The position numbers and the translations under genes were made by a program. From Vibrio sp. 10N.286.49.B1 (GTDB lineage: Bacteria; Pseudomonadota; Gammaproteobacteria; Enterobacterales; Vibrionaceae), in contig NZ_MCUW01000068.1 of assembly GCF_002873335.1 (NCBI RefSeq), positions 13,520 to 77,519 on the forward strand: a DNA stretch of 64,000 bases. The letters are read 5' to 3'. Positions 1,316-14,705 of the stretch are shown here, piece by piece (position 1 is the first letter of the stretch; every line of letters begins with the position of its first letter). The notes below the pieces were generated by a model, which saw only the letters and a list, made by a program, of their open reading frames with translations, ran no database searches and was not told where the DNA came from.

Positions 1316-1318
1316 AGT

Positions 1319-1447
1319 TTAAAACCACCCTGATTTACCATTGATTTGTTCTTTGAGCGGGTTAAGTGCGCTCACATTGTTGATCATCGCTAATGCGACC
1401 AGAACGGCCACAACCGTGAACAACATGGTTTTGTGTTTTGCTTGCAT
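1319..1447 (-). CDS. 42-residue phage membrane protein
   Basis: This short gene starts with ATG eight bases after a good ribosome binding site (AGGGG) and stops just before the capsid gene start. The product has a basic N-terminus (MQAKHKTM), one hydrophobic helix (about residues 8-26, LFTVVAVLVALAMINNVSA) and a short polar tail. That topology and size match the very small virion membrane proteins of PM2-type phages. It is the first gene of the capsid-proximal late block and lies downstream of a pair of repeated motifs that could be a late-promoter element. Function is inferred from size, topology and position. Confidence 0.7.
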   Translation of the reverse strand: MQAKHKTMLFTVVAVLVALAMINNVSALNPLKEQINGKSGWF

Positions 1448-1526
1448 GGTTTCCCCTGTTTCACAACGTTGGAAATAAAATGAGTTTTAATAAAAACAGT
1501 AAAATGTCATATCGTCACGATGTTTG

Positions 1527-1558
1527 AACCTATAGGTAGAACTTTCAACCTATAGGTT
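1527..1558. promoter_or_regulatory. Twin AACCTATAGGT motif upstream of late genes
   Basis: The 11-base motif AACCTATAGGT occurs twice (1527-1537 and 1547-1557), exactly 20 bases apart, about two helical turns. Each contains the palindrome CCTATAGG. The pair sits in the only sizeable gap of the minus-strand phage operon, about 80-110 bases upstream of the mini-membrane protein and capsid genes. The spacing suggests a binding site for a dimeric or cooperative activator of late transcription; this is an inference. Confidence 0.45.
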
Positions 1559-1568
1559 GGAATGAGCG

Positions 1569-2318
1569 TTAACGGTAGTTTCTAGAGAGCATTTTTCCAG
1601 TTTCACAATTCAATGCGCCCCGTTCTAGGTTGCCAATACCATCACGTACAATTAAGTATTCAGCAATAGCCTTGCCTATTCGCTGCTTGTTTACTTTCGC
1701 GCTTTTGAGATCAGCTATTTCATTGGAGTGAATCCCTTTTTGCTTGGCTACCCAATCGGCATCAACACCGGAATTTACCGCCCCTAACCACCAAATGGAT
1801 GATTGGTTGGTCACGGTTTTAGGCACTTCTTGCCCACGCTGAAAAATAGTGTGTACCACATGCCCAAATTGACGCCCACCACGCAGCAATTCACCCGTTT
1901 TTCCCTCCAGTTTGCCCGAGGTTTCCGCGCAGCTTGCCAACTCTTCAATCACCACATGCAATTTAGGTTTGAATCCATCCCCTAGCGCCCAAGCTATCGT
2001 GCTAAATAACTCAAGCTCAGACATGCACGCCCCTTTTGGAGGAATGTAAGCCAACTTAAACGCGCACCCCATGCGGCGCCCTTGCACCGCCGCTTTAATG
2101 AATTGGGCTGGGTCGGAAAACCCATGGCACATTTGCCCGTGAAATTTACTCCCTGCATAATTTCGGTATGGGTCAAAGAACAGCGTTTGTGCTTTCTTGG
2201 GAACCAATCCAATGTGTTTTACTGCACTGGTTTTGCCACTGCCTGTACCCCCTAAATAAACCGTATGTTCAGCATCAAGAGCAGGGTTAGAATTAATCGG
2301 ATTTACGAGTAACGGCAT
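1569..2318 (-). CDS. Packaging ATPase, PM2 P9-like (FtsK/HerA family)
   Basis: This 249-residue ATPase has a Walker A motif at residues 23-30 (GGTGSGKT), a hydrophobic Walker B with two acidic residues at 122-126 (VVIEE), and a downstream arginine/glutamine motif (RGGRQFG, about 145-151), the pattern of genome-packaging ATPases of membrane-containing tailless phages such as PM2 P9 and PRD1 P9. These enzymes are thought to drive DNA into, or assemble at, the unique vertex. The start overlaps the end of the upstream membrane-protein gene by 26 bases. Length and motifs are typical, with all catalytic residues present, so this unit could still be functional. It is the best diagnostic gene for the prophage type. 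Confidence 0.85.
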   Translation of the reverse strand: MPLLVNPINSNPALDAEHTVYLGGTGSGKTSAVKHIGLVPKKAQTLFFDPYRNYAGSKFHGQMCHGFSDPAQFIKAAVQGRRMGCAFKLAYIPPKGACMSELELFSTIAWALGDGFKPKLHVVIEELASCAETSGKLEGKTGELLRGGRQFGHVVHTIFQRGQEVPKTVTNQSSIWWLGAVNSGVDADWVAKQKGIHSNEIADLKSAKVNKQRIGKAIAEYLIVRDGIGNLERGALNCETGKMLSRNYR

Positions 2319-2736
2319 CGCGCTTATCCTCCTGAACCTTTTTCACTTCCAATGCGGTGATTTGTTTTTTAGACGCCCACCACAAACCCAAGATAGCCAA
2401 GACTAGGGTCATGACATTCATGTAGTCGCCGCATTGCTCCAACACCGCGCCACCGTATTGCTTGGCAACAGGGCGAGCCGCTGCAATGACGCTTTGCTTG
2501 GCGCGTTCATCAAATGAAAAATCAATGTCTTTCATAATGGAGACCGCTTGCTCAACCACCACTAAACCAGTCGTCACCAATGCGTCGAACGCCTCACTTA
2601 CATCGGCTTCCTGCTCTTGCTCTGTCGCATTGGGCTGACCGTCAACGGACGCTGGCGCTTCAGATTGAAGGTTAGCCACATACACATCGAGCGCGGCGAG
2701 GTTATCAGGACAGCTTTCAACCGTTGAATCACTCAT
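2293..2736 (-). CDS. Phage membrane-anchored protein, 147 aa
   Basis: The ATG at 2736 is chosen because a strong ribosome binding site (GGGGGAAG) precedes it. The protein is acidic at the N-terminus, has a central helical region, and a hydrophobic helix near residues 105-121 (YMNVMTLVLAILGLWWA) followed by a highly basic tail (KKQ...KKVQEDKRDAVTRK), giving a likely single-pass membrane protein with a charged C-terminus. It lies between the zinc-ribbon gene and the packaging ATPase, overlapping both, so it belongs to the late operon. A virion membrane protein is likely; I recognise no named family. Confidence 0.65.
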   Translation of the reverse strand: MSDSTVESCPDNLAALDVYVANLQSEAPASVDGQPNATEQEQEADVSEAFDALVTTGLVVVEQAVSIMKDIDFSFDERAKQSVIAAARPVAKQYGGAVLEQCGDYMNVMTLVLAILGLWWASKKQITALEVKKVQEDKRDAVTRKSD

Positions 2737-3241
2737 GATTAGCTTCCCCCTGGTTAACTTTATTCGCTGCCAACATGCGTTTAACCGCAAACAACAACAC
2801 AAGGACGAGCCCCAAACACGCGCCAACCTTTAGAAATTGCGGTTGAAGACGGTTTTCTGGTAATGGTGCTTTATCCGCTGTCGTTTCGGTTGAAAGCGTT
2901 GGTTCAATGGGGGTAACGTCGGTTGATTCAACCAATTCTGACTCATCACTGATTTCGGCTTTTTCCGGTGGCTCAATAGAGGTTTCAACCTTATCGGGCG
3001 CGGCTGGGAGCAAATCAGGGGACGCTTGCATGTGCTCGGTACAATAGGCGCTAACGCTCTTGCTCATTGATGCGTTTCCGCAGTTTGGGCACTTGTAGTA
3101 CAGCAATCCCAAATTGCGCCCATTCTTAACGGTTTCGCCAGAATCAATGAGTTTACCTTCACCAATCATATGAACGGTTGAATTTGTATGGCAGACAGGG
3201 CAAGACACATGCCCCCGTACTGGGTTGGGTGTTTTACTCAT
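2729..3241 (-). CDS. Zinc-ribbon protein with C-terminal membrane anchor
   Basis: The start at 3241 (MSKTPNPVRG) is chosen for its ribosome binding site (GAGGCGG) and short overlap with the upstream gene. Residues about 13-16 and 44-47 form two Cys-x-x-Cys knuckles (CPVC and CPNC) of a zinc ribbon, similar in layout to Ogr/Delta and TFIIS-like phage transcription factors. A long acidic, Thr/Pro/Glu-rich linker follows, then a hydrophobic helix (LKVGACLGLVLVLLFAV) and a short basic tail. PM2 encodes a zinc-finger late activator (P14), but the membrane anchor here is unlike a plain transcription factor, so the role is open. It is 170 residues and intact. Confidence 0.65.
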   Translation of the reverse strand: MSKTPNPVRGHVSCPVCHTNSTVHMIGEGKLIDSGETVKNGRNLGLLYYKCPNCGNASMSKSVSAYCTEHMQASPDLLPAAPDKVETSIEPPEKAEISDESELVESTDVTPIEPTLSTETTADKAPLPENRLQPQFLKVGACLGLVLVLLFAVKRMLAANKVNQGEANHE

Positions 3242-3542
3242 CGGTTGCCGCCTCTTCAATGACCACTGTTGATTGCGTTTTAAGTTGCTGCTTGCGCTGC
3301 TCTCGAATGATGCGGTTTGCCTTGGCGACCAGCTTTGCTTTATCGACGAGTTTTGGATCAAGACCAAGGACGGAAAGCGGGTCAGCGCCACCCATGATCA
3401 CTTTAGGTGCCAGTGACAAAAGCTCAGTGGGTGAGAAGTCTTTGACCTTATCAAACGCGCTTTCTAGCTCTAGTTCTAGCGCGTCAATGGTTTCAATGCG
3501 TGCCAATTCAGCTTGGCACTCTTGTTGTGTCAGTGTTTTCAT
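3234..3542 (-). CDS. Conserved phage protein of unknown function, 102 aa
   Basis: This is an all-helical, charged, soluble protein without cysteines or membrane segments. The N-terminal half is acidic and the C-terminal part (about residues 65-90) is rich in Lys/Arg/Gln (KAKLVAKANRIIREQRKQQLK), suggesting nucleic-acid or protein contacts. It is the first gene after the palindrome that follows the initiator gene and overlaps the zinc-ribbon gene by eight bases. By position it could be a late-transcription factor like PM2 P13, but I have no sequence evidence for that. Confidence 0.6.
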   Translation of the reverse strand: MKTLTQQECQAELARIETIDALELELESAFDKVKDFSPTELLSLAPKVIMGGADPLSVLGLDPKLVDKAKLVAKANRIIREQRKQQLKTQSTVVIEEAATDE

Positions 3543-3580
3543 AAATAGTCCCTGTTTCTCAACGTTGACAGTGGGTTAAG

Positions 3581-3609
3581 AGTATTTGGCCTACGATAGG
3601 CCAAATGCT
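3581..3609. other. Palindrome at 3' end of phage initiator gene
   Basis: The near-perfect 29-base palindrome AGTATTTGGCCTAC-G-ATAGGCCAAATGCT begins at the last base of the initiator stop codon. A perfect version lies at the same place in the decayed second prophage unit (9181-9209). No T-tract follows on either strand, so it does not look like an ordinary intrinsic terminator. It may be a replication, recombination or protein-binding site. Confidence 0.6.
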
Positions 3610-5420
3610 TAGTAAGTGATTAATCGACCTTGTTTGAGCCTAATTTTGCAGTATTGGTCAATGGTGACCGTTCCCCCTTTTGATAATGGTTTGAGAAGAC
3701 ATTCCACCCCCTTCATGCTCCATCCGGTCGCGTCCATAAGCGCTTTAATTATTGGAGAGTTACAGTTATTTTCAGTGCTCCAAGGTACGGCACTCCGTGC
3801 CTTTTGAAGACGCTTCACGTCTTTTTTACGAACGAGGCTATAGCACTCGCTTGCGGTTTTAATGAGAGCCCCAAGCCAAGAAAAGCCAATGATTTTTTTG
3901 TTGGTTTCACCGTACTGATTTTGCTTCGATTCGTATTCGACTCGCGCACCGTTGGCGAGCTGGCAAAACAACGACCACTTTGATGAATCCGCCGCTTGTC
4001 TTAGTTCTTCCAGTTTTGGGTCTATCTTGGTTTGCTCTGCGGTTGCCCTACGAAGATTGCGCCACAGTGAAACAGGCTGACCACCAAATTGTTGAAACTG
4101 TCTGATACGGTGAGTGGATGCCCAAGCGCGAGCACGATAGGCATATTCTTCCGATTCCGTTTCAGGCATATGCTTGCCGTTAATGTTTTTTGAAACGTAC
4201 TTAGCGATGTAGGCCGTTGCCCCGCCTTTTTTTGGATCGGCTTCTTTCACATCAAAGCGTGGTGAAATATCTTTGCCTAACTCGCTCCGGTCTTCCCCTA
4301 TCGCGCACCCTTTTAGAATATTGGTGATCGTGGTTTTGTCCTTCGGTGAGCAAAACAAAAAATAGTGAGAATGGCTCGTTGAATCTTTATGAGGTTCAGC
4401 CACACGGAAACCAAAATACTCAATATTCTCTTTAGCAATAAGAGCACGAGCGACCGCCCACTTTTGCATGAGCGCTTGATGCCCTTCTTTCACAGAGGCG
4501 CCATTCCACTTTCTCGACACTCGGTGATATTTGCTTGGTAATGTCCAAGTGACGAACAAAGCAGTAAACCCTAAGTCCAGTGCAAATTCCTCAAAACCGC
4601 GAGAACGCACCATCATTTCAATGCGTCGATTCTCTGGGTTTGCCGTAGTCCTTTTGATCACTTCCTCTAAATCGAATGCTTCCCCCGTTTCCGTATTCAT
4701 TACTGACATGGCCTCTATGTACTGTTTCGCTTCGCGTTGCTTTTGCTTCCAGTTTGAAAAAGACATGGCACTAATCACCGGCGCTTGGTGCTTACCTTCA
4801 CCAACACGTTCTAGGGCAATTTGTACATATTCGATGTACTGCGATCGCAAATGCAAAAGTCGGCGTACTATCCATTCGTCGGATTGCATCTTGAGCGCGG
4901 CTATTTCGAGATCGCATTCCAGTTCGTCAGGCTTATCCTGTTCCTTCCTGAAATTTATCTTCGGTGGGTTGATATGGATTTCTTGCAAGGTGAAGGATTG
5001 ACGCTCATAAACATGCTTGAGCGCTTCAAGATAGCTATTAAAAATCTCCGGTAGGCTTTCATCACTTAGCATCGTTGAGCACGTATCGGCATAATTTTTT
5101 GCGAGCTTTTCAATGGCATCGTCGCGCATCAAAATATCATGGCTTAATGGTTCAGCACTGGCCTTGTATCGGCTATCCACAAACGAAAATTTATCTTCAA
5201 TGAAACTCGCTCGCTTCAAACCAAACTTAACCGCATCTTCTGCAGCACGAATAAGGTTTTGAGTAGTTGGGTTACTGCGAGTCATGCGCTGTTCGACTTT
5301 ACGTTTCACATCGTTTTTCACCATTTGAGGCAAGCGCGGAAAGAATCGGCGGGTAAACGCTGAAAGGCGTAATACGTCTGCCGCCTCCAACGCTGCCACT
5401 TCATTGATAGCTTTCGTCAT
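3609..5420 (-). CDS. Rolling-circle replication initiator, PM2 P12-like
   Basis: The 603-residue protein is a superfamily I HUH endonuclease. The metal-binding His-x-His motif is at residues 350-352 (HSHYFLF), and the catalytic motif YIAKYVSKN at 404-412 carries two tyrosines three residues apart with the conserved lysine, as in ΦX174 gene A protein. PM2 P12 is of this class and of similar size. It would nick one strand at the phage origin and start rolling-circle replication. I chose the ATG at 5420 because an upstream reading to 5543 would overlap the preceding small gene by over 100 bases. It is preceded by the small genes of the early operon and followed by a palindrome. All key residues are present. 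Confidence 0.85.
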   Translation of the reverse strand: MTKAINEVAALEAADVLRLSAFTRRFFPRLPQMVKNDVKRKVEQRMTRSNPTTQNLIRAAEDAVKFGLKRASFIEDKFSFVDSRYKASAEPLSHDILMRDDAIEKLAKNYADTCSTMLSDESLPEIFNSYLEALKHVYERQSFTLQEIHINPPKINFRKEQDKPDELECDLEIAALKMQSDEWIVRRLLHLRSQYIEYVQIALERVGEGKHQAPVISAMSFSNWKQKQREAKQYIEAMSVMNTETGEAFDLEEVIKRTTANPENRRIEMMVRSRGFEEFALDLGFTALFVTWTLPSKYHRVSRKWNGASVKEGHQALMQKWAVARALIAKENIEYFGFRVAEPHKDSTSHSHYFLFCSPKDKTTITNILKGCAIGEDRSELGKDISPRFDVKEADPKKGGATAYIAKYVSKNINGKHMPETESEEYAYRARAWASTHRIRQFQQFGGQPVSLWRNLRRATAEQTKIDPKLEELRQAADSSKWSLFCQLANGARVEYESKQNQYGETNKKIIGFSWLGALIKTASECYSLVRKKDVKRLQKARSAVPWSTENNCNSPIIKALMDATGWSMKGVECLLKPLSKGGTVTIDQYCKIRLKQGRLITY

Positions 5421-5424
5421 ATGG

Positions 5425-5616
5425 TTAACCCAAACACTCAGAAGCCGTACACACGTATTGCAGAGGGCGTACCTTTTTCGGTTTTGAACGGCCAATGCCG
5501 TGTTTATCACGCAGCTTGTCCAGTAAGTAAATTGAACGTTCACGCTTCTTTGGGTCGGGATTAACCATACCCGCCATATCGGGGCATGGTTTGTGAATAG
5601 GGTTAGTCACTTCCAT
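5425..5616 (-). CDS. Small basic phage protein, 63 aa
   Basis: The protein is rich in Lys, Arg and Pro (NPDPKKRERSIYLLDKLRDKHGIGRSKPKKVRPL) with three cysteines. It stops five bases before the initiator start and begins two bases before the end of the next upstream gene's stop, so it is tightly packed in the early operon. The basic character suggests nucleic-acid binding. No family was recognised. It occupies a frame that also reads as an N-terminal extension of the initiator; the small gene is the more plausible of the two. Confidence 0.55.
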   Translation of the reverse strand: MEVTNPIHKPCPDMAGMVNPDPKKRERSIYLLDKLRDKHGIGRSKPKKVRPLQYVCTASECLG

Positions 5617-5618
5617 CG

Positions 5619-5816
5619 TTAATCCTCCAAGCTTTCTAACAGTTCAGCATCGGCAACAAGCTGATCGTAAATCGGGTGTAGAAACTTAAATTCTGGTGAG
5701 CATGGCGATAACCAGTTCAAGCGAGTACGAACAATGTTCATCAGTTCTCTTGCTTCACTCGAATGAGAAAAATCAATACTGGTGCTATGGATTGGTGTCG
5801 ATACGTTATTCATCAT
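5619..5816 (-). CDS. Small acidic phage protein, 65 aa
   Basis: This is a soluble, mostly helical protein with a Ser/Thr-rich start and an acidic C-terminus (VADAELLESLED). It lies two bases upstream of the next gene and eight bases downstream of the PrtN-like gene, so all are in one early transcript. No family was recognised. Confidence 0.5.
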   Translation of the reverse strand: MMNNVSTPIHSTSIDFSHSSEARELMNIVRTRLNWLSPCSPEFKFLHPIYDQLVADAELLESLED

Positions 5817-5824
5817 TTATTTCC

Positions 5825-6079
5825 CTATGCGTTTACTGAAAGCCAATCACGCTTTGCATCGGCGTGGCGTTGGTCGATGTAGTCGGCAAGATCGTCAATT
5901 TTGATTAGCGATGGACTGCGCTCTGAATCGCGCAATTTAAAGGTGGGAACGGGGAAGTCACAGGCTTTCGCTCTCTGCTCTGCCGTCTTGGGGGTAACGC
6001 CAAAAAACTCTTGGCTTATCTGTTTAAGTTCAACAGTCGGGTTTTCAAATCGTGCTAATAGCGCAAATTTTGTGTTCAT
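5825..6079 (-). CDS. PrtN-like transcriptional activator
   Basis: This 84-residue protein matches the pyocin activator PrtN family: the pattern of a short N-terminal segment, a helix-turn-helix region with the signature 'FFGVTPKTAEQRA', then 'FPVPTFKLRDSERSPSLIKIDDLADYID' is typical. PrtN switches on pyocin genes in Pseudomonas after DNA damage relieves repression by PrtR. Here it is the first gene of the leftward phage operon and is divergent from an S24-type repressor, the same regulator pair. It is probably the early activator, or an excisionase-type DNA-bending protein, whose promoter is blocked by the repressor. The ribosome binding site is GGAGG, five bases from the ATG. Confidence 0.75.
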   Translation of the reverse strand: MNTKFALLARFENPTVELKQISQEFFGVTPKTAEQRAKACDFPVPTFKLRDSERSPSLIKIDDLADYIDQRHADAKRDWLSVNA

Positions 6080-6239
6080 AATTCCTCCATGTAGTACACT
6101 TGAGGTAACTGCAATTAATTCACAATTCCTCAGAATCCCTCAAAGTCGATTTGAGTTAATTATGAGGCATTAATTATCTAATTCAACCTATTTTTGAAGA
6201 ATTGAGGCGACTATGAGCGAGTTTGAGTTAAGTTTGAGG
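6080..6239. promoter_or_regulatory. Divergent phage control region with repeated operators
   Basis: Between the PrtN-like gene and the repressor gene the motif TTGAGG/CCTCAA recurs: TTGAGG at 6100, CCTCA at 6128, CCTCAA at 6138, TTGAG at 6151. A longer direct repeat, TTTGAGTTAA-N3-TGAGG, is found at 6150-6167 and again at 6222-6239 inside the first codons of the repressor gene. This looks like a phage operator array that lets the repressor silence the leftward promoter and control its own gene. The TTGAGG at 6202-6207 doubles as the repressor's ribosome binding site. Confidence 0.55.
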
Positions 6240-6818
6240 AAGCTTAAAGAAGTAACAAATACCTCGACAAATGCAGAGCTAGCAAAGGTTTTAGAGATTT
6301 CTCCAAAGACAATTTATACGTGGAGAGAACGCCAAAATATCCCTGAAAAAATATTCTTAAAAGCACGACAGCTATCACAAAAATCCGTTAGTTTGCCCGT
6401 CGGTTATCTCGCATTAAAATTTTTCGATATTGAAGTAAGTGCCGGACAAGGAGCACTTATCGAGAAAGAAGAAGAATCTAGCGCAATGGTTTTCAGTGAG
6501 CGGTTCATTAGACAAGAGCTTGGATTTAACCCTAATGACATTTTCTTAATGCCTGTCCGTGGTGACAGCATGATCCCCACTCTAAAAAATCAAAGCATCG
6601 TTATGGTGAATCGGGTTGATGGTTTTTCTACAGATGGTATTTACGTATTCCGCTATGACAATCGCTTGATGGTTAAAAGACTCCAATTCCTACCGAACGG
6701 CATAAAAGTGGTGAGTGATAACAGCGCTTATGAGCCTTGGGAACTTGGGAAAGAAGATATTAAAGGGGCTGATTTTAAGATCATCGGTGAGGTGGTTTGG
6801 TCTGGGCAAAGGATGTAA
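6213..6818 (+). CDS. LexA/CI-like self-cleaving prophage repressor (S24)
   Basis: The 201-residue protein has an N-terminal helix-turn-helix of the phage CI type (about residues 5-52, with NAELAKVLEISPKTIYTWRERQ) and a C-terminal S24 peptidase domain. The Ala-Gly cleavage site is at 77-78 (SAGQG), the catalytic serine at 119 in GDSM, and the lysine at 155 in MVKRL. Such repressors cut themselves when RecA is activated by DNA damage, so this prophage is predicted to be SOS-inducible. It is divergent from the PrtN-like gene. Its stop codon lies only five bases from the 3' end of a convergent Qrr-like sRNA gene, so read-through transcripts would be antisense to that sRNA. Confidence 0.85.
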   Translation: MSEFELSLRKLKEVTNTSTNAELAKVLEISPKTIYTWRERQNIPEKIFLKARQLSQKSVSLPVGYLALKFFDIEVSAGQGALIEKEEESSAMVFSERFIRQELGFNPNDIFLMPVRGDSMIPTLKNQSIVMVNRVDGFSTDGIYVFRYDNRLMVKRLQFLPNGIKVVSDNSAYEPWELGKEDIKGADFKIIGEVVWSGQRM

Positions 6819-6822
6819 GAAG

Positions 6823-6928
6823 AAAAAAGCCAGTTACCAAGGGGGTAACTGGTAAATTAATCTATGTGAACAAAGGTATTCACTAACAACGTCAGTTGGC
6901 TAGGTGACCCTCGGCTTAATAAGGGTCG
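6823..6928 (-). ncRNA. Qrr-family small RNA, copy A (at phage repressor)
   Basis: Read on the minus strand, this about 105-nt element has the architecture of the Qrr quorum-sensing sRNAs of vibrios. A 5' stem-loop (GACCCT...AGGGTC, 6906-6911 pairing with 6922-6927) is followed by the hallmark pairing core CTAGCCAACTGACGTTGTTA (ends at 6903), then a GTGAA...TTCAC stem, and a terminator hairpin (CCAGTTACC/GGTAACTGG, 6830-6852) with a six-base U-tract. Qrr RNAs act with Hfq on luxR/hapR-type and other mRNAs. A -24-like TTTGGC lies at 6949-6954, at the right distance, but the -12 GC of a sigma-54 promoter is missing (CTAGA instead). It sits directly after the repressor gene of the intact prophage. 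Assignment to the family is by recognition of the conserved core. Confidence 0.85.
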
Positions 6929-7273
6929 TATCGAAATCTAGAGGAAAAGCCAAATGACCTCCATACCACTTTAGGGTTGTGCGCTGTTCTTATTCGTTAT
7001 TACATGACATAGAACAAAAAGATAGAGAAAACATATAAAACAAAGGTAGTACGGACTTAGTACGTATGACTCGCTTTGAAGCCTGATATAGCTTAAAAGT
7101 GAGTCCAATCGAGCATGGGTGCTATGGAAAGACGGCTTGAATGGAAATCGCTTGTGTTGTCTGGCTTCATCATTGTTTTACCTAAGTTTTTAACCATTCA
7201 AATCCGCTTTGAATATCATGGATATTTCGCCCAAATTCGTCCTGTAGTACCCCTCAAAGAGTAGGACGACGGA
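6929..7273. other. Non-coding stretch right of Qrr copy A
   Basis: I see no convincing gene in these 345 bases. They would hold the promoter of Qrr copy A (minus strand). A direct repeat TAGTACG-gact-TAGTACG-like motif lies at about 7048-7063 and could be an attachment core for the neighbouring integrase remnant, but a second copy was not found in the window. Confidence 0.4.
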
Positions 7274-7628
7274 ATGGCTTCTCTATCAATTGAAAAACGG
7301 CAGCTACAAAGCAACCATCATCGTGAAGAAAAAGCAGGCAATAATACACAGAGAATCGAGAACTTTCAAAAAGAAAGAGCTTGCGAAGACCTATTTCCCT
7401 TATAACTTTGGAAGTGTGACGGCAGGGTTTCAGCGCGTTAGGAATAGTTTAGAGATTGAAGATTTGCGCTACCACGATTTAAGGCGTGAGGGTGCCAGTA
7501 GGCTATTTGAAAAAGGCTACTCTATTGAAGAAGTAGCCCAAGTGACTGGTCATCGGAACTTGAATATTTTGTGGCAAGTTTATACGCAGTTGTTTCCACA
7601 TAAGTTACATAGCAAGAGCTTTGAATGA
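7274..7628 (+). pseudogene. Tyrosine integrase remnant (frameshifted, internally deleted)
   Basis: The gene starts with ATG at 7274 (MASLSIEK...), but the reading frame shifts at about 7290, where the typical N-terminal domain of island integrases continues (NGSYKATIIVKKK...IIHRESRTFKKKELAKT). At about residue 34 it jumps straight into the C-terminal catalytic domain, keeping the HDLRREGASRLFEKG box, the GHRN motif and the final catalytic tyrosine (LWQVYTQL). The core-binding domain and the first catalytic arginine are therefore lost. It probably integrated one of the elements here and is now inactive. It lies between two prophage units, on the strand opposite to their structural genes. Confidence 0.75.
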
Positions 7629-8148
7629 GCTAACCGGCATCTCTGTACAATACAAATCACTTTTTATCGTTTTGCAGCCAAAGGTCACGCTTTTAAACAA
7701 CCAACGGCCACTGTCTTATTTTCACCAAAAATCAAGGTTTTTATTTTTGAAGTGAGCAAAAATAACCCGAATTGCTCGCAAATTAATTTTAAGATATGAC
7801 AACCACTTAGCTGAGTTGTAAGTGGTTACTAACCTTTATATTCCCTTTCGTAAGTTATCCACAGTAATAGCAATTTGTGAACTTGAATTTATTTTGCAGG
7901 GTGCTTATCTTGTACCCAGAAAAACAAAAACAACCATATATAGGGTTTCGGAGGTCAATTATGCATTTAAGATAATAAAAACCCCTAACTAGGTCGCTAG
8001 GGGTAGTGCGACCGTCACATTTACCAAAGTACGATATTACCAGTATCGAAAGGTGAACGTTCAGCTCGACTTGAACAGTAAAAGCTTAACTTCTCCTCCT
8101 TACTTTGGCAAATACAAAAATATCATATTCACTTATGAGGTATTTCTA
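7629..8148. other. Non-coding AT-rich stretch with hairpins and a DnaA box
   Basis: No convincing gene was found in 520 bases. The stretch holds a perfect nine-base stem (AACCACTTA at 7801-7809 pairing with TAAGTGGTT at 7819-7827), a perfect DnaA box TTATCCACA at 7855-7863, and a GAGCAA...TTGCTC inverted repeat near 7753-7779. These are features seen around small replicon origins, but one DnaA box is weak evidence. Confidence 0.4.
7974..8004 (-). terminator. Intrinsic terminator, minus strand
   Basis: The inverted repeat ACCCCTA (7981-7987) and TAGGGGT (7998-8004) is followed on the minus strand by TTTTATT. It would stop leftward transcription coming from the decayed second prophage unit before it reaches the integrase remnant. 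Confidence 0.65.
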
Positions 8149-8409
8149 ATGCCAAAAGACCGAAAAAACACAAAGAAAAGGGGCAACATTGAAGCTTTTC
8201 GTAACAGCATCGTTGCAAAAATATCACTTCGAAGCCCTACGACCACATTCAACTTATCGTTATATTACTCAAAAGCTACAAGACCTAAAAGCAGACATCT
8301 ACAAACTAAAAGGAGCAGTGACGACTCAATAGTAAAAATCGTTTTAATTGGGCTTGGCACAGAAATCCTGAGAGTAGTTTTACACTCACTAGAGTTCCCT
8401 ATAGCTTAA
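8149..8409 (+). CDS. Uncertain small ORF(s), possibly frameshifted
   Basis: An 86-residue frame starts with ATG at 8149 after a GAGG ribosome binding site. Its start is very basic (MPKDRKNTKKRGN) and its end hydrophobic (IVKIVLIGLGTEILRVVLHSL). The overlapping +1 frame from a TTG at 8189 to a stop at 8332 reads more like a natural protein (KLFVTASLQKYHFEALRPHSTYRYITQKLQDLKADIYKLK), with a helical, coiled-coil-like C-terminus. Either two overlapping small genes or one gene broken by frameshifts would explain this. No family was recognised and the call is weak. Confidence 0.3.
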   Translation: MPKDRKNTKKRGNIEAFRNSIVAKISLRSPTTTFNLSLYYSKATRPKSRHLQTKRSSDDSIVKIVLIGLGTEILRVVLHSLEFPIA

Positions 8410-8430
8410 TGCATAGTTGCAGCTAAGTGA

Positions 8431-8466
8431 CGTTGTGGTCAAAACAGACTCTCTTTGACCACAACG
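8431..8466. terminator. Strong hairpin ending the second prophage unit
   Basis: A perfect 13-base stem (CGTTGTGGTCAAA at 8431-8443, TTTGACCACAACG at 8454-8466) with a ten-base loop lies two bases beyond the stop of the last minus-strand gene. There is no clear T-tract, so it may act as a weak terminator or as an mRNA 3' stabiliser. Confidence 0.5.
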
Positions 8467-8467
8467 G

Positions 8468-8641
8468 TTAGCTACATCTAAATACTATTGAGTTTTTTTC
8501 AAGCTCATTCACCTTTTGAATTAGCTTTCCCAGAAGAACATTTGTGTTTCTGATATTCTGCCAAAGCATTCCCAATATCAAAATTTCAGTCGGTTTTAAA
8601 CCCAACTCTGCAAGGACAGGTAATATCGGTAAATCAATCAT
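8468..8641 (-). CDS. Small phage protein, 57 aa, translationally coupled
   Basis: The ATG at 8641 overlaps the stop codon of the preceding gene (ATGA). The product (MIDLPILPVLAELGLKPTEILILGMLWQ...) has a hydrophobic amphipathic N-terminal half and a C-terminal heptad-like helix (NVLLGKLIQKVNELEKN). It is the last gene of a four-gene remnant late operon in the second prophage unit. A similar set of short overlapping genes is usual for phage lysis or virion membrane modules, but no family was recognised. Confidence 0.6.
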   Translation of the reverse strand: MIDLPILPVLAELGLKPTEILILGMLWQNIRNTNVLLGKLIQKVNELEKNSIVFRCS

Positions 8642-8844
8642 TCAGATCCCTTAAACTCATCCCGTATCGCTTCCCACAAGCCAAGCAGTAACGGCGCCAC
8701 TGCGCCAATCACCCCACCCATTTGCACACCGTCAGGCGTAACGCTTGCCGTCAATAACTCAGGGTGACCAGTGACAAGGGCAACACCCGCACCAATTAAC
8801 GCTAACCCTTTTTTTGTTGATGGTTGATTCAAGTCTATTTTCAT
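8638..8844 (-). CDS. Small phage membrane protein, 68 aa
   Basis: The start at 8844 (MKIDLNQPSTKKG) is chosen because the ribosome binding site GGAG lies eight bases upstream; a longer reading to 8868 lacks one. The protein has two hydrophobic, Gly/Ala-rich segments (LALIGAGVALVTG and MGGVIGAVAPLLLGLWEAI) and an acidic tail, a holin- or small virion-protein-like layout. It is coupled to the next gene by an ATGA overlap. It belongs to the late module of the second prophage unit. Confidence 0.65.
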   Translation of the reverse strand: MKIDLNQPSTKKGLALIGAGVALVTGHPELLTASVTPDGVQMGGVIGAVAPLLLGLWEAIRDEFKGSE

Positions 8845-8860
8845 TTGGGTTACTCCTACT

Positions 8861-8950
8861 CTAGCCATTAATACGCTTCCAGATATACGCGCTGATTAAA
8901 GCGGTGAAAATGCCCACCGCGACTCGTTGCATCATTTCTTTTTGATTCAT
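8861..8950 (-). CDS. 29-residue phage membrane peptide
   Basis: The ATG overlaps the TGA stop of the lytic-protein remnant upstream (ATGA). The product MNQKEMMQRVAVGIFTALIS...WKRING is one hydrophobic helix flanked by charged residues. PM2-type phages encode virion membrane proteins of about this size. The gene lies in order with the other overlapping late genes, which supports it despite its length. Confidence 0.5.
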   Translation of the reverse strand: MNQKEMMQRVAVGIFTALISAYIWKRING

Positions 8951-9141
8951 ACCAGGGCGACTCTTTGTTTCGCATCCGGTAGCGAGTAATAGCGCCCGAC
9001 TTCCATAATCGACATAGCGTGAACCAAGCGAGCGAGCAATTCGTTATCGGCTAGGTTGAGCGCGGCGTTTGGTGAGATATTCAATTGCCTTGCCACGAAC
9101 TGCGAGTAATTCGCGGTGTCGTTTTGATTGCTTGGCGCCCA
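8947..9141 (-). pseudogene. C-terminal fragment of a P5-like structural/lytic protein
   Basis: Reading backwards from the TGA at 8947-8949, an open frame WAPSNQNDTANYSQFVARQLNI... up to about 9141 matches the C-terminal part shared by many phage 'structural protein P5'-like muralytic proteins (WAPPxxNDTxxYxxxVSxxLGVxPxxPLNLxDPxxLxxLxxAI). The catalytic N-terminal region is missing: about ten residues upstream of the tryptophan the frame meets a stop codon and non-homologous sequence. It is a deletion remnant of the second prophage unit. The family call is from memory of the conserved pattern. Confidence 0.6.
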
Positions 9142-9180
9142 ACGTCCCCGATGATCTCGTTGGTGCAGTTTAGCTCATAG

Positions 9181-9209
9181 AGTATTTGGCCTATGATAGG
9201 CCAAATACT
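9181..9209. other. Perfect 29-base palindrome, second copy
   Basis: The arms AGTATTTGGCCTAT and ATAGGCCAAATACT are perfectly complementary around a single G. It is the second copy of the palindrome at 3581-3609 and lies likewise between the initiator gene (here a remnant) and the late genes. A half copy (ATTTGGCCTATGAT) occurs at 15165-15178. Confidence 0.65.
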
Positions 9210-9212
9210 TAA

Positions 9213-9470
9213 TCGTTCTAATTTTGTTTCGACTCATAGTCAACTCACACACCGTTGGCAAACTGGCAGTGCAACCATTAGTTAGAGGAGGCCGCGGCTT
9301 TTCTTCAGACTGAGTTCTATCTTGTTTGCTCCGGTGTTTTACAACCAATCTCGTTGTGTTTACTTTCACCGAATCTTCTAAGGCAATAGCAAGATCCTAA
9401 TACAGTTCATCTGGGTTACCTGGTTCCTTACTGAAACGAATGTATCGTGAATTGATTGCAGGGCGAGGCA
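9213..9470 (-). pseudogene. Decayed rolling-circle initiator remnant
   Basis: Two blocks of this stretch can be aligned by eye with the intact initiator gene. Bases 9219-9320 correspond to about 3916-4040 (shared CACCGTTGGC and GGTTTGCTC-like segments) and 9400-9450 to about 4908-4960. About 1.5 kb of the gene is missing and frames are broken. It shows that a second prophage of the same family once stood here. Confidence 0.65.
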
Positions 9471-9483
9471 TCACCGCGCTTGA

Positions 9484-9543
9484 AAAGAAAGAAATATAAG
9501 GGACCGGTTTTGGGCCGCCGGTGAGGTGATAGTGTCAGGATAA
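9484..9543 (+). pseudogene. 3' end of a second S24-type repressor gene
   Basis: This segment aligns without large gaps to the last 60 or so bases of the intact repressor gene (about 6757-6815), sharing CGGTGAGGTG and the A-rich stretch that follows the stop. It is fused to the initiator remnant by a deletion. Its value is that it places Qrr copy B at exactly the same position relative to the repressor as copy A. Confidence 0.6.
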
Positions 9544-9550
9544 AGAATCT

Positions 9551-9656
9551 AAAAAAAACCAGTTACCAAGGCGGTAACTGGTCAATAAATTGATGTGAAC
9601 AAAGTTATTCACTAACAACGTCAGTTGGCTAGGTGACCCTCGGCTTAAAAAGGGTC
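9551..9656 (-). ncRNA. Qrr-family small RNA, copy B (at decayed prophage)
   Basis: On the minus strand this element carries the same parts as copy A: 5' stem GACCCT/AGGGTC, the core CTAGCCAACTGACGTTGTTA (identical), a GTGAA/TTCAC stem, and a terminator hairpin (ACCAGTTACC/GGTAACTGGT, 9558-9582) with an eight-base U-tract, the best of the three. No GG-N10-GC sigma-54 promoter is seen at the expected distance. A TCATGTAAATT stretch at about 9664-9674, shared with copy C, could be a sigma-70-type -10 region. The RNA has been kept intact while the prophage around it decayed, which argues for selection. Confidence 0.85.
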
Positions 9657-9896
9657 ATCTACGAATTTACATGACAACAAGACAATTAACCACACTACTT
9701 TTGTGGTATTTACTTTTCTTTTTCAGACACTTGATATCAATAATCTACAGCCTATCTTGCATCCGGTAGGGCGTGATATCACCAATATCACACACGGTGA
9801 GCGAACAAGTCACTATCAGAAAATGGATTACTGATATTATTCCAGCAATCCATTACCTAAGATTCTAGGTTTCCCCTCATAAAGAATGTTCAACTC

Positions 9897-10817
9897 TTAT
9901 GCAGATACGGTATTCATGGCAGCCTCATTAATTTTATTTCTTAGCCAAACAATCGATGGATCACGATTTCTCGATGTTGACCAATGTACACCGACCTCAA
10001 TTTCTTGTTCAAGGAAACTATTACTTAGTACTTTTAACTTATATAAGTCTGCGTTTTCAACGGCCATTTTTCTAGTAAACACAACCAAATTATCACCATA
10101 TCTGATTGACGATAATAGCCCCCAATAACTTGCGACCTGTCTTTTAACTTGCCTTTTTTTTAACAATTCTACTGTCGCATTAGAAAAACTCTCAAAAGAC
10201 TTATCATTGTCAGAGAGGCTTGAAAGCGTAATGTGATGATGATTTAAGAATTCACTTTCAAGTATCCGACTTCCAGAAAAATCAGGATGATTACTCCTGC
10301 AGACCACCACCAATTCATCCTTATAAATCACCTGTGATTTGATGAAAGGTTCCGTTTTTATCGACCCTTCGATTGAGACATCAATAATCCCCTGCCTCAA
10401 CATATCTCTCGTCTTTTTAGCGCTATGATCATCCACGTAAATAGTGATATTTGGCGCCTCTTTTTCAACCAACCTAAAAAGCTCTGGTATTAAAGAGTGT
10501 TCAAATAGACTCATGGTTGATATTTTGAACACTCGCTTGCTTGAAGCGGGATCAAATCGAGTTTTTGTTGCTGATAGCATGTCTAGCTTTAATATTACAT
10601 CTGCAATATCTGGGTATATTTCTAAAGCAAATGGGGTTGGCCTAACACCTGATTTTTCCCTAATAAAAAGAGGATCATTATAAATATCCCGCAACTTAGA
10701 AATACTCTGACTGACTGACGGCTGGCTAATACCTAATCTCTTCGCTACTTTCGTATACTTTCGCTCCTCTACCACAGCAGCAAAAATAGCTAATAAGTGA
10801 TATTCATTAAATTTCAT
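9897..10817 (-). CDS. LysR-family transcriptional regulator
   Basis: The start at 10817 (MKFNEYHLLAIFAAVVEE) places the winged helix-turn-helix at residues about 5-62 with the typical 'KVAKRLGISQPSVSQSISKLRDIYNDPLFIR' signature; longer readings lack a ribosome binding site. The rest (306 residues in all) is a type-2 periplasmic-binding-like effector domain. The sequence resembles the LeuO/NodD-like branch of LysR proteins. It is divergent from the large lipoprotein gene with 142 bases between them, the usual layout for a LysR protein and its target. The ligand is unknown. Confidence 0.8.
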   Translation of the reverse strand: MKFNEYHLLAIFAAVVEERKYTKVAKRLGISQPSVSQSISKLRDIYNDPLFIREKSGVRPTPFALEIYPDIADVILKLDMLSATKTRFDPASSKRVFKISTMSLFEHSLIPELFRLVEKEAPNITIYVDDHSAKKTRDMLRQGIIDVSIEGSIKTEPFIKSQVIYKDELVVVCRSNHPDFSGSRILESEFLNHHHITLSSLSDNDKSFESFSNATVELLKKRQVKRQVASYWGLLSSIRYGDNLVVFTRKMAVENADLYKLKVLSNSFLEQEIEVGVHWSTSRNRDPSIVWLRNKINEAAMNTVSA

Positions 10818-10959
10818 GGTTCTCATTAGGATATAAAGATTTTTATATCTAATAGTACCAGATTTTATTCTCAAAAAAGTACACTTCATGAGTTTAATAT
10901 CTTAATTACAATAATTTAAATAAAGCACAATAATTTTAAATACGAAGGACGTCCGAGTA

Positions 10960-13900
10960 ATGAAAAAAATCAGCTTGCTAGCAGCAGCGATTACAGTGGT
11001 TTTAACGGGTTGTGGAAGCGATGATTCAAGCTCTTCTAGTACCCCAATAAGCACATCGTTCACTATCACCGCAATTGATGGGTACCTATATAGAGCTAAT
11101 GTCTATACCGGTGATAACTGTGACCAATTTATTGACCAGACTAACCAAGAAGGTCAACTGACACTAACTAATGAAACCATTAACAAAAAAGTTTGTATTA
11201 AAGCCGTAGCCGGTGAAACTATTGATATGACTCGTGGTGTCGTTGTTGATGACTTTGCACTTGCGGCACCTGAAAATTCTGGTCAATCCATTATTGTTAG
11301 TCCGATGACGAATCTGGTTGTTGAGCAAATCAATTTAGCAAGTGCAAGCAATATTGAAGTGACACAAGAAGAAGCGGAACAAGCTGTAATTGATTCTTTC
11401 AATACCCACGAAGATGTTATTTATACACATGAAGATATCTTTGGTGATTATATTGATGCAGCTGACGGTGAAGGTAAAGAGACCGAAAAGGCGAAAACCA
11501 TTAATATTGTAGGTGAAGCTTTAGTTGATAATAATGATGTGCTTGAGGTAAATGATCAACTACAAGTCATTTATGATATTTCAGAAGAAACATCGCATAT
11601 TATTGCCGATGAAGAACAAGCGTTAGACAATAGTTACGCGCCTGTTATTGAAACCGGTGAGAATGGTTATGTTGGCATCATTCCAAATAATCGCCCAGTA
11701 ACAAAAGAAGTTAGTAAACCAAAGACTATCGATTTAGGGACTTCACTTAACTATGCGCTAGACACGTTATTTATTGATAATAATGGTGATGATTTAAGTT
11801 ACACCGTCGATGCCTCAGAAGCCGCTGGCGCCGCTATTACTACAAACACGTCGATGCTGACTATTACCCCCACTTTAGCAGGAACTTATGATGTATTAGC
11901 GTATGCATCTGATGAAGTATCTCGCTCTTACCCGTTAGTGCTAAAAGTCACAGCCGTTACACCAAATACCGCACCAATTTTGAATGAACAAAATACCTTG
12001 CAAGCGGATCTTGATGCTCTAGGGCTGACAGCAACAGTAAGCACCGATGAACGATTGTCGATTAGTGGCTTATTTACAGATGCTGATAACGATCCTCTGA
12101 TTTATGCTGTCACCGACGTGACAGAAAGTGGCTTGAGTATCAACGTAAACAACGCCAATACTGAACTGCATGTTATTGGCACCCCAAGCCAAGAAGGAGC
12201 ATTCACATTTGATATAACCGCTTATGATGGTGTTCACTCAGCAGTGAGCCAGACCTTTACTCTCAATGTTACCAAAGCGCCAAATACTCCCCCTATATTA
12301 GAGCCTACTCAGCACCAACGTGTGGCTGATGATCTAACCGCGCTTGAATTGCGAGTCGGTACTGCTGTTAATGGGTATATTAACATTGAGCAACTGTTTA
12401 GCGATGATGATGAATTAACACTCACTGTACAAGACAAGATCGCTGGCGTCGAAACCAATATCGATGGTGCTATTCTCACCCTATTAGGCACACCGACAGA
12501 ACAAGGCAATCAAGGTTATCCTGCTTTAGACATCACTGCTGATGATGGCGTAAATACTCCTGTATCTGCCTATTTTGACATATTTGTTGCTGAAGAGGAC
12601 AACGTTGATCCGGTAGACCCTGTTACACCAGCCCCTACCCCACTCTTTGAAGAGAAACACTTTATTGGTGGCTATTGGCGTATGGGTGAGATTGGCGAAG
12701 ATATCGGCCTGGAACACGATTTTAACGGTGACCTAGAAATGGGTTGGGCCTCATTGCTGAAAGAACAAGAACAGCACTATTTTTGTTGGGACAAGAGTCT
12801 TGATATCCAAACCCCAGAGCAACTTGAAGAGTTAGAAACACCAGAAAACAAAAAGCTGATAATCAACCCAAACAGTGAGGATTGCAGGCCTGTCGATATC
12901 CAACCTGATGGCACATTATTGGGCGAAGGTAAGATTTACACCCCAGTCTACACCTCAGAAAAAGATGGTGACTATCAGATTGTGTTTGAAATTGAAGGCG
13001 ACTTGTACTGGTTAGATTCCACCCAAGATTTACCATTTACGGCAATGTTACCTGTCCCACCAATGGATAAAACGGTTTATCAGAGTATTGATTGGACCGA
13101 AGGTTCTGGTGTTGAGGTACTCCTACGTAGTGCAGATTTTACCGTTAACGAACAGAATATTTATGCCTCAGACGTAACAAAGTCTGGAACATTTTTCGGA
13201 CGTGAACTCGATGTCAATGACCCGTTAATTTGGATCGGCACCTGGGAGATTTCCAAACCAGGAGAGGATCAAGAGCTATTGAGCTATGACGCACATCACG
13301 CTGCTAGCTACGAACAGCGCTATATGCGCCAATTTAATGGTGGAGAGTTGAGCATTCTTGTTGCACAGCATGGTGACGAAGTTGGTGAAAAAGTAGATAT
13401 CGTATTAGAGTCGAACGATCTAGCTTTATTACGACGTATCAATGCAGTATGGGACCCACAACCTGCGCAACCAACCCCTCTTAATCCAAGCCTACTCGAA
13501 GGGAAGACGTTCTATTTTACTGAAAATGGCGCCGCTACAGGTGGTGGCGAGTCCTTAAAACATCATGTTGTATGGTGTGATGCCGTCAAGTTTGAAGACG
13601 GTAATTATTATTTTAGTCAACGTAATCCGTCGAACAGAACGGCCTGCCCAACAGACGCGGATCTCCTTGACGAAGGCTCGTACTCCATTGATGAGGAAAA
13701 TTCACGCTTAGTTGTTAAGAATGGTATTAACTCCGCAACTCATACCGTCATTGGGGATGCGAGTGACATCTCACAAGGTGCGCTTTCTGTCATATCTAAC
13801 GGTGAACGCTACACCTACTTCACAGATAAAAGCTCTGTTGAAGACCGTTTGGATGCCAAATCCAGCACCAATGGTGAGGCAAGTAATAGCTTTGGCTTCT

Positions 13901-14241
13901 ACTTACCTACGGAGCAAATGAACCACTCTCAACTGGGTAAAATCAGCATCAGTTTGACGCCGTTTAATGCAAATATAACGTTTGAGAAAGAAATCGATGG
14001 TGATGAGATGAGTTGTGAAATAATTCATGACTACTTTGACGGTTTTTGGTTAAGCTCTGGCGATAGCGCTAATTATGAGTGGGAATGTAGTCGCGATATT
14101 CAAGGCATTGTTTCAGTTAACATCCCAAGCAGGTTTGCATTGGATACCAATACTGTATACAGCGTAATTGGCACTTCAGAAAATAAGTATCAAGAATCCA
14201 TAAAATACAGCATTCACTGGGATGAAACATTAGCGGATTAA
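10960..14241 (+). CDS. Large secreted lipoprotein with cadherin-like repeats
   Basis: The 1,093-residue product begins with a lipoprotein signal peptide ending in the lipobox LTGC (cysteine 18) followed by Gly-Ser, which favours outer-membrane sorting, and a Ser-rich linker. Residues about 240-550 hold three tandem Ig/cadherin-like beta domains, each with an 'N-x-APILxxQ ... FTDADNDPL-like ... FDITAYDGV' pattern. The C-terminal half (about 560-1093) is a Trp-, Asp- and Cys-containing beta-rich region that I do not recognise. Such proteins are usually surface adhesins or substrate-binding proteins. It has an AAGGA ribosome binding site and a terminator downstream. The divergent LysR gene probably controls it. 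It lies between two Qrr copies, so it may be island cargo. Confidence 0.75.
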   Translation: MKKISLLAAAITVVLTGCGSDDSSSSSTPISTSFTITAIDGYLYRANVYTGDNCDQFIDQTNQEGQLTLTNETINKKVCIKAVAGETIDMTRGVVVDDFALAAPENSGQSIIVSPMTNLVVEQINLASASNIEVTQEEAEQAVIDSFNTHEDVIYTHEDIFGDYIDAADGEGKETEKAKTINIVGEALVDNNDVLEVNDQLQVIYDISEETSHIIADEEQALDNSYAPVIETGENGYVGIIPNNRPVTKEVSKPKTIDLGTSLNYALDTLFIDNNGDDLSYTVDASEAAGAAITTNTSMLTITPTLAGTYDVLAYASDEVSRSYPLVLKVTAVTPNTAPILNEQNTLQADLDALGLTATVSTDERLSISGLFTDADNDPLIYAVTDVTESGLSINVNNANTELHVIGTPSQEGAFTFDITAYDGVHSAVSQTFTLNVTKAPNTPPILEPTQHQRVADDLTALELRVGTAVNGYINIEQLFSDDDELTLTVQDKIAGVETNIDGAILTLLGTPTEQGNQGYPALDITADDGVNTPVSAYFDIFVAEEDNVDPVDPVTPAPTPLFEEKHFIGGYWRMGEIGEDIGLEHDFNGDLEMGWASLLKEQEQHYFCWDKSLDIQTPEQLEELETPENKKLIINPNSEDCRPVDIQPDGTLLGEGKIYTPVYTSEKDGDYQIVFEIEGDLYWLDSTQDLPFTAMLPVPPMDKTVYQSIDWTEGSGVEVLLRSADFTVNEQNIYASDVTKSGTFFGRELDVNDPLIWIGTWEISKPGEDQELLSYDAHHAASYEQRYMRQFNGGELSILVAQHGDEVGEKVDIVLESNDLALLRRINAVWDPQPAQPTPLNPSLLEGKTFYFTENGAATGGGESLKHHVVWCDAVKFEDGNYYFSQRNPSNRTACPTDADLLDEGSYSIDEENSRLVVKNGINSATHTVIGDASDISQGALSVISNGERYTYFTDKSSVEDRLDAKSSTNGEASNSFGFYLPTEQMNHSQLGKISISLTPFNANITFEKEIDGDEMSCEIIHDYFDGFWLSSGDSANYEWECSRDIQGIVSVNIPSRFALDTNTVYSVIGTSENKYQESIKYSIHWDETLAD

Positions 14242-14277
14242 TTCGGTCTACTAGACGTGATGCTTTGATAAATATAG

Positions 14278-14300
14278 AGCCCTGCAGTGCAGGGCTTTTG
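14278..14300 (+). terminator. Intrinsic terminator of the lipoprotein gene
   Basis: AGCCCTGC and GCAGGGCT pair around a three-base loop and are followed by TTTT, 37 bases after the stop codon. Confidence 0.8.
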
Positions 14301-14593
14301 GGTCATACCTTCGCTCTATTTTCAACTAAGTGATAGCCAAGCGCACCAAGATGCTCAATCTACTGGCCATGCTGCCCCTTTTTGACGACACGTTAAGTTT
14401 GAGTGTTCTAATGTGTATACACATTAAGAGTATTTGAGTATCTCATTCGGAATACCATAACGATAATGATCCCATGATAGTGTCGCTGCCAACTTAGTGA
14501 TGGGACATTGCTACGCATCCGCTTTAGCAAGTAGAACTGACCATTACGCAGAACTCTAAAAGCATAACGATCGTTTGCCTTGGGAAAGAATAA
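14301..14593. other. Non-coding stretch, possible mobile-element scar
   Basis: No gene is supported. At about 14487-14503 the sequence GCTGCCAACTTAGTGAT closely resembles the terminal inverted repeat of IS1 (GCTGCCAACTTACTGAT), but no transposase reading frame is nearby. A few bases before Qrr copy C (about 14575-14598) resemble the end of the prophage repressor gene, which hints at a third eroded unit. Confidence 0.35.
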
Positions 14594-14705
14594 GAAAAGA
14601 TAAGCCAGTTACCATTAATCATAACTGGCTTATACAAGATGTGAACAATGAGTATTCACTAACAACGTCAGTTGGCTAGATAACCTTCAACTTAATAAAG
14701 GTCGT
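14594..14705 (-). ncRNA. Qrr-family small RNA, copy C
   Basis: On the minus strand this copy has the same core CTAGCCAACTGACGTTGTTA and the GTGAA/TTCAC stem, with more divergence elsewhere. In the 5' stem a C-G pair of copies A and B is replaced by T-A (ACCTT/AAGGT), and the terminator stem is a perfect 12-base helix (ATAAGCCAGTTA/TAACTGGCTTAT, 14600-14633) with a different loop. Changes that keep pairing indicate an RNA under structural selection. The U-tract is interrupted (CTTTTCTT). No sigma-54 promoter is seen; TTTTCA-N16-TATATT upstream could be a sigma-70 promoter. It lies 618 bases from zur. Confidence 0.8.

Follow-up and report, generated by a model that had tools for sequence, protein, structure and literature searches.

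A PM2-like Vibrio prophage carries a Qrr small RNA gene that may act outside LuxO control

The stretch of DNA analyzed here, hereafter the window, comprises 64,000 nucleotides (nt) of the genome of Vibrio sp. 10N.286.49.B1 (contig NZ_MCUW01000068.1, abbreviated C68, positions 13520-77519). It contains three genes for small RNAs (sRNAs) of the quorum-sensing Qrr family, the first of which, Qrr1, lies inside a tailless PM2-like (Vinavirales) prophage. A search with the Rfam 15 covariance model RF00378 (gathering score 50) returned three full-length matches in the window (model positions 1-108; 88.7-94.7 bits), all above the gathering score and all on the minus strand; genome-wide there are five, the remaining two both on contig C10. 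A search for the 20-nt core CTAGCCAACTGACGTTGTTA that permitted up to three mismatches gave three sites in the window, all exact, and none in 100 dinucleotide-preserving shuffles. Folds, pair counts, and a terminator scan revealed the 5' stem-loop, the GTGAA/TTCAC stem, and the intrinsic terminator, the latter detected for Qrr1, Qrr2, and Qrr3. An earlier note on this DNA had described three minus-strand Qrr elements with an identical core and had proposed the Rfam search as a check; the matches bear this description out, and the coordinates it gave were 0-3 nt off the RF00378 boundaries. The features are collected in Table 1.

The right half of the prophage opens the window, and its left half precedes it (locus L013), with further phage genes and a tyrosine integrase (identified by Pfam) adjoining a tRNA-dihydrouridine synthase gene (dus, recognized by eye). 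The element combines what is expected of a dus-integrating Vinavirales prophage, namely a P2-type capsid protein, a packaging ATPase, a replication protein (Rep), a repressor, an integrase, and the shared attachment site (att) at the dus 5' end. Comparison of window positions 1-7000 with a Vinavirales record from Vibrio cyclitrophicus (PQ189334) gave 97% aligned at 71.5% identity; 47 phage records matched part of this segment, three of them over at least 80%. Because the repeat shared by the dus 5' end and positions 7103-7131 bounds the element, and its core is present at both ends of three published relatives, the prophage measures approximately 13.95 kb and includes Qrr1. The sRNA gene is positioned between the S24 repressor gene and attR, convergent with the former and two bases apart from it, and the same layout recurs in a second species. 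Carriage of Qrr1 by the prophage is well supported by these observations, and the proposal of the earlier note, that the genome of a corticovirus-like prophage includes a Qrr gene, is supported for this copy. The possibility that a Qrr serves as the attachment site, with the prophage ends duplicating a host qrr, was rejected, since neither copy of the att repeat, one in the dus 5' end and the other at 7103-7131, overlaps a Qrr. The same prophage also contains a defence gene pair of the HEC-01 type (PADLOC HEC-01A/B; L013:8000-9747), located between the integrase and the lysis genes.

Table 1. Features of the prophage and Qrr region, in window coordinates.
Feature	Position	Strand	Remarks
PM2-like (Vinavirales) prophage, right half	1..7131	.	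whole element C68:6674-20650, about 13.95 kb
P2-type double jelly-roll capsid protein	482..1315	-	PF18628, PF25513
Packaging ATPase	1569..2318	-	phrog_2666, 8.5e-51
Replication protein A (GPA family)	3609..5543	-	PF05840, 9.5e-74; true start may be internal to the open reading frame
PrtN-like / excisionase protein	5825..6079	-	PF11112, phrog_1300
S24/LexA-type phage repressor	6213..6818	+	Pfam Peptidase_S24, Phage_CI_repr; PHROG transcriptional repressor
Qrr1 sRNA gene	6820..6928	-	RF00378, 94.5 bits; inside prophage, convergent with repressor gene
Qrr1 intrinsic terminator hairpin	6830..6852	-	terminator scan; T-run after hairpin on minus strand
Putative Qrr1 promoter block	6933..6954	-	TTTGGCTTTTCCTCTAGATTTC; from alignment; not a canonical sigma-54 box
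attR	7103..7131	+	29-bp repeat (93%) of dus 5' end, C68:6674-6702, before window
Integrase 3' fragment, collapsed second prophage	7394..7615	+	90% identical to that of the intact prophage
Lysis-region fragment, collapsed prophage	8648..9188	-	92% identical to that of the intact prophage
Repressor 3' end remnant, collapsed prophage	9487..9548	+	self-comparison 81% over 179 columns including Qrr2
Qrr2 sRNA gene	9549..9657	-	RF00378, 94.7 bits, E 9.7e-17; end of collapsed prophage
Qrr3 orphan sRNA gene	14595..14704	-	RF00378, 88.7 bits; upstream of zur-like gene

A search of 227 genomes of the genus with the repressor gave some match in 86, the weaker ones being mostly other S24 repressors, and the best 30 matches were taken for a comparison of the region between repressor and att. 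Rfam detected a Qrr in two of these 30 loci, our own and that of G090, taken as Vibrio methylphosphonaticus (S4B1), which displays the same repressor-Qrr-attR layout as Qrr1. The repressor end was readable in 23 loci (no readable frame in 7), with the att repeat within the flank in 14 and out of reach in 9. Among the 14, the slot contained only Qrr in two (286 and 290 bp), was empty in four (61-82 bp), and was filled with other DNA in eight, where the largest open reading frame (ORF) ranged from 66 to 376 amino acids (aa). This comparison indicates that Qrr takes an otherwise empty slot, and the Qrr1 location looks like an accessory slot of this phage group. Beyond the two PM2-like cases, phage copies could not be counted from searches of genome DNA, because the matches listed were mostly chromosomal qrr genes. 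The arrangement resembles hotspot H1 of the dus-integrating Vinavirales prophages, as described in the available part of that study (PMC11630473), in gene content, in the dus attachment site, and in a variable border locus often flanked by a regulator. In contrast, the accessory genes described there are proteins, whereas the slot here is occupied by an sRNA gene and lacks any ORF of at least 60 aa; the words sRNA and quorum are absent from the main text of that paper. The dus-integrating tailless Vibrio phages have been proposed to be active (PMC11630473, in the part available).

Three copies within 8 kb, one of them (Qrr3) without surrounding prophage sequence, could also be native chromosomal qrr genes that happen to adjoin a prophage. 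However, Qrr1 is enclosed by the repressor and attR, and the same slot in relatives is empty or contains other cargo. Furthermore, in a comparison of 30 loci around the zur-like gene, none of the 20 that contain both dus and zur had the Qrr core at that site, and one (G126) had an integrase remnant there. Rfam, applied to 20 of the 30 zur loci (11 having dus and zur), matched only our own locus (Qrr3) and the G090 prophage. Since all 20 dus-zur loci are free of the core, Qrr1 is not a native gene beside the prophage, and a native qrr at dus-zur was ruled out for it. For the three genes together we regard this explanation as highly improbable; contradicted for Qrr1, it may still apply to Qrr3. 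The earlier note had held that its proposal would fail if Qrr copies occupied this site in prophage-free strains and related prophages had none: no such copy was seen at the dus-zur site, and one related prophage besides our own, among 30, has a Qrr.

That note had tied all three Qrr genes to a prophage. The tie stands for Qrr1, in an apparently complete prophage; it extends to Qrr2 in the form of a decayed tandem copy, and it is lost for Qrr3, which has no recognizable prophage flanks. In addition to the fragments in Table 1, the interval between attR and Qrr2 contains a 74% piece of the Rep region, and the pieces follow the gene order of the intact prophage. Judging from these pieces, the interval is what is left of a tandem prophage that collapsed, with Qrr2 at its end. 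Qrr3 has nothing in common with the compared prophages beyond the Qrr itself and, by its flanks, is an orphan. A LysR-type regulator and a large ORF resembling an Ig-like lipoprotein lie between the collapsed prophage and Qrr3 (window 9897-14241). The window also contains an ordinary alpha operon ribosome binding site (RF00140; 52681-52792, minus strand; 87.1 bits).

The regions upstream of the Qrr genes were compared with those of chromosomal rows picked by best RF00378 scores or DNA similarity, near-duplicates included. The sigma-54 pattern, cited as usual by the earlier note, was found in 90 of 90 sampled chromosomal rows and in none of the four Qrr from prophages or the window, the three window genes among them. 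A LuxO-like palindrome of at least 8/10, scored against a consensus, was present in 85 of 87 chromosomal rows and in 0 of these four, which scored at chance level. The four lack both the sigma-54 promoter and the LuxO sites expected upstream of a LuxO-controlled qrr gene, features that belong to the usual gene and do not define the Rfam family. Compared with the usual Qrr of Vibrionaceae (RF00378), Qrr1 shares the full-length covariance match, the core, the stem-loops, the terminator, and a predicted pairing with a luxR/hapR-type leader, but it differs in its position in a phage slot and in the lack of a sigma-54 box and LuxO-like sites. The block TTTGGCTTTTCCTCTAGRTTTC upstream of Qrr1 is common to both PM2-like prophages with one difference, and the TTTGGC in the upstream block may be an old -24 half. 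Consensus scans for sigma-70 promoters were negative for the minus strand at Qrr2 and did not exceed shuffles at Qrr3.

Two observations concern Qrr control outside this prophage. Chromosomal qrr genes without a sigma-54 box or LuxO-like sites, in the host clade and in other genomes (L014:9665-9773; L195, L196; L194, L197, L198), are possibly LuxO-independent bacterial Qrr. On the Vibrio plasmids pFORC54 and pVN20-VB00237, a Qrr lies directly upstream of umuDC (L209:4001-4103, L211:3001-3101), with LuxO-like sites present and an imperfect -12 element; a third plasmid match is in V. cidicii.

A tree of 81 rows and 113 columns, in which many forks are open, the bootstrap is not settled, and Qrr3 forms a long branch, placed the four prophage or window Qrr on one branch (96/86). 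This branch is nested in a 98/93 group with chromosomal qrr of the host lineage (own C10:161887, G126, G090), and the placement points to capture of the phage Qrr from a close host. Between Qrr1 and the V. methylphosphonaticus copy, whose prophages have 79% identical repressors, the core differs at 1 of 27 positions and the remainder of the slot at 39 of 186 (p 0.03). Constrained positions changed at 7 of 68 sites, a number inflated by an alignment shift in the terminator, whereas loops and linker changed at 16 of 41 (p 0.0006). For the pair counts, the four prophage or window Qrr and six close chromosomal Qrr were aligned as nine distinct rows; standard pairs filled 96.7% of pair cells, and three pairs were changed on both sides. 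Slid controls gave 0-1 such pairs, and shuffles attained three in 25 of 500.

A LuxR query has one homologue in the genome, 72% identical. Against the leader of this homologue (-55 to -7, which extends to the Shine-Dalgarno region), the predicted pairing energy of the Qrr1 and Qrr2 cores is -20.9 kcal/mol; both host chromosomal Qrr give this same value, which 4 of 1000 mononucleotide shuffles attain. The Qrr3 core reached -18.0 kcal/mol (33 of 1000 shuffles). The V. methylphosphonaticus copy, which has one change in the target-pairing core, reached -16.8 kcal/mol with this leader from another species (21 of 1000). Core-restricted pairing separates from shuffles and does not tell phage from host Qrr.

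Published work, in the part available (PMC11315295), reports that LuxO-P drives Qrr and that Qrr represses OpaR. Induced qrr2 raised lysogenic conversion by vibriophage VP882 (in the wild type, 20% uninduced versus 75% induced), and OpaR was dispensable for this effect. With an OpaR-independent effect whose target that report leaves unknown, Qrr1 might conceivably act mainly on mRNAs of its own or a competing phage instead of on host quorum sensing. We consider this distinctly improbable, as no phage leader stood out as a self-target: the best gave -19.4 kcal/mol, which was matched by 2 of 39 background leaders from the window. The strongest of these background leaders (-26.0 kcal/mol over the Shine-Dalgarno region) belongs to a transporter-like gene, recognized by eye, at 39798-41540 on the minus strand beside a cysC-like gene, a possible host Qrr target.

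From these comparisons, Qrr1 may be a phage-captured, LuxO-uncoupled Qrr that biases the host to the low-cell-density state and perhaps to lysogeny, a reading to which we assign a probability of approximately 0.55. A PM2-like temperate phage would have captured a host qrr gene, which would be transcribed from a promoter kept by the phage and not answering to LuxO. Assisted by Hfq, Qrr1 would base-pair along the leader of the host luxR/hapR-type mRNA as far as the Shine-Dalgarno region and would also bind other targets of Qrr. Since Qrr1 would be free of LuxO control, the lysogen would gain Qrr activity even at high cell density and have less of the LuxR homologue, so that the host would be held nearer its low-cell-density programme. 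Lysogeny may be favored, by analogy with the published Qrr effect on VP882. Retention of the pairing core and absence of the LuxO and sigma-54 sites both agree with the proposed push to low cell density.

Several results weigh against this reading or limit the comparisons behind it. The LuxO and sigma-54 sites are also missing from our own chromosomal qrr at C10:24664, from its G090 and G126 orthologues, and from qrr genes of three other genomes (L194, L197, L198), six such chromosomal rows in total; because chromosomal qrr of the host clade lack them too, their loss is not a phage hallmark, and this candidate argument was weakened accordingly. The energy of the whole-length duplex of Qrr1 with the luxR leader was reached by 64 of 300 shuffles, and 2 of the 39 background leaders pair with the core at least as well as that of luxR. 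Constrained positions did not change significantly more slowly than the slot flanks (7 of 68 versus 39 of 186, p 0.06), further pair types were not above shuffles (496 of 500 reach the count), and one of the three pairs changed on both sides is unpaired in five of the nine rows. In the tree, the four rows cluster equally well in 74 of 500 label shuffles. A search of the annotated phage collection with the 109-nt Qrr1 was negative at E 1e-5, our own genome is one of only two PM2-like carriers among the 30 repressor loci, and the consensus scan gave 0 sigma-70 promoters for Qrr1 (shuffles 0.8). Finally, Qrr2 and Qrr3 illustrate that Qrr copies can end in decayed contexts.

Some of these points would equally suit passenger DNA, that is, a host qrr picked up by chance recombination and now silent or slowly decaying: a copy left in a collapsed prophage (Qrr2), a divergent one (Qrr3), no recognized promoter for Qrr1, and two PM2-like carriers only. 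A mere passenger is, however, unlikely in view of the low number of changes in the core relative to the rest of the slot, the pairs changed on both sides, and the 22-nt block on the promoter side that two prophages have in common despite repressors of 79% identity.

Qrr was also found in tailed phages. Scanning IMG/VR with the core yielded contigs L006-L009, all four 40-44 kb long; Rfam confirms a Qrr in every one (62-75 bits), and it points the same way as the lysis genes. The gene after the Qrr is a holin gene in L006 and L007 (Pfam on L007); in L008 and L009 a small protein without known function is followed by a transglycosylase. A promoter-like string before the leader is common to 13 fetched loci, which overlap in part (L007 and L204 are one contig, and L184 and L205 look like one element); the full core is present in 4 of the 13 and CTAGCCAAC is kept in 10, the exceptions being L203, L206, and L208. 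Qrr or Qrr-like leaders between the promoter-like string and a terminator, before lysis genes, were noted in L006-L009, L076, L121, L122, L183, L184, and L203-L208. Partial leaders right before the holin gene, below the Rfam cut-off, occur in Aliivibrio phage H905, K303, and PhiPS02; these three and L114 are termed Qrr-like because they are partial and below that cut-off. The K303-type core piece was found in 82 Vibrio records by a very permissive search (E up to 10; best 40 of 84 records listed). Chance matches to the degenerate core in two further viral contigs, L113 and L115, were rejected, as the matching sequence lies in a protein-coding frame and neither contig has an Rfam match.

Lambdoid late-leader RNAs (6S RNA, tR') are terminated leaders. 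The tailed-phage Qrr leaders resemble them in their position between a conserved promoter-like string and a terminator, before lysis genes, but differ in carrying Qrr or its CTAGCCAAC seed, and no Q-type antiterminator was identified. Qrr appears to have been recruited separately by tailed vibriophages as a leader before lysis genes, which suggests repeated recruitment, host-to-phage or phage-to-host, independent of the PM2-like case.

The orientation of the tailed-phage genes also bears on the convergent arrangement of repressor and Qrr1. With two bases between these genes and no plus-strand terminator detected by the scan in 6700-7200, a repressor transcript could read through the slot and titrate host Qrr as an antisense sponge, or the convergent pair could cross-regulate, with a net anti-Qrr effect. 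This appears quite unlikely, since the hairpin and T-run fit termination of a minus-strand RNA, a structured Qrr would require the stems and the pairs changed on both sides, and the Qrr of the tailed contigs are co-directional with the lysis genes.

The finding is real and unusual: a familiar RNA family is present in a carrier new to it, and its control is probably also new. No description of a phage-encoded Qrr was found in titles and abstract openings of the open-licence literature on Qrr with phages or mobile elements, and Qrr is absent from the main text of a 2025 review of phage sRNAs. A close comparison is VpdS, an sRNA of vibriophage VP882, which is likewise phage-encoded, reported to bind Hfq, and linked to quorum sensing and the phage decision (PMC12197685, in the part available); VpdS is not described as a Qrr there, and the two are set apart by description only.

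Qrr RNAs are the hub of Vibrio quorum sensing and serve vibrios to maintain the low-cell-density programme; phages, VP882 being the example, are already known to listen to this circuit and to react to host Qrr. A Qrr supplied by a phage without density-linked control sites could write to the circuit and keep lysogens from the high-density programme; as induced qrr2 raised VP882 lysogeny, it could also bias the phage's own life cycle. More broadly, and tentatively, unrelated Vibrio phages, tailless PM2-like and tailed, may each have taken over a host Qrr that, freed from LuxO, keeps lysogens or infected cells at low density, with a class of pre-lysis leaders in tailed phages keeping at least the CTAGCCAAC seed that fits the luxR Shine-Dalgarno region; Qrr mimicry as a general viral strategy in Vibrionaceae is a possibility we hold with some doubt. 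As the finding suggests, regulatory RNAs can be among the cargo in accessory slots of small tailless phages, where protein-based surveys would miss them. If Qrr1 is expressed as proposed, a virus may steer the group behavior of its host.

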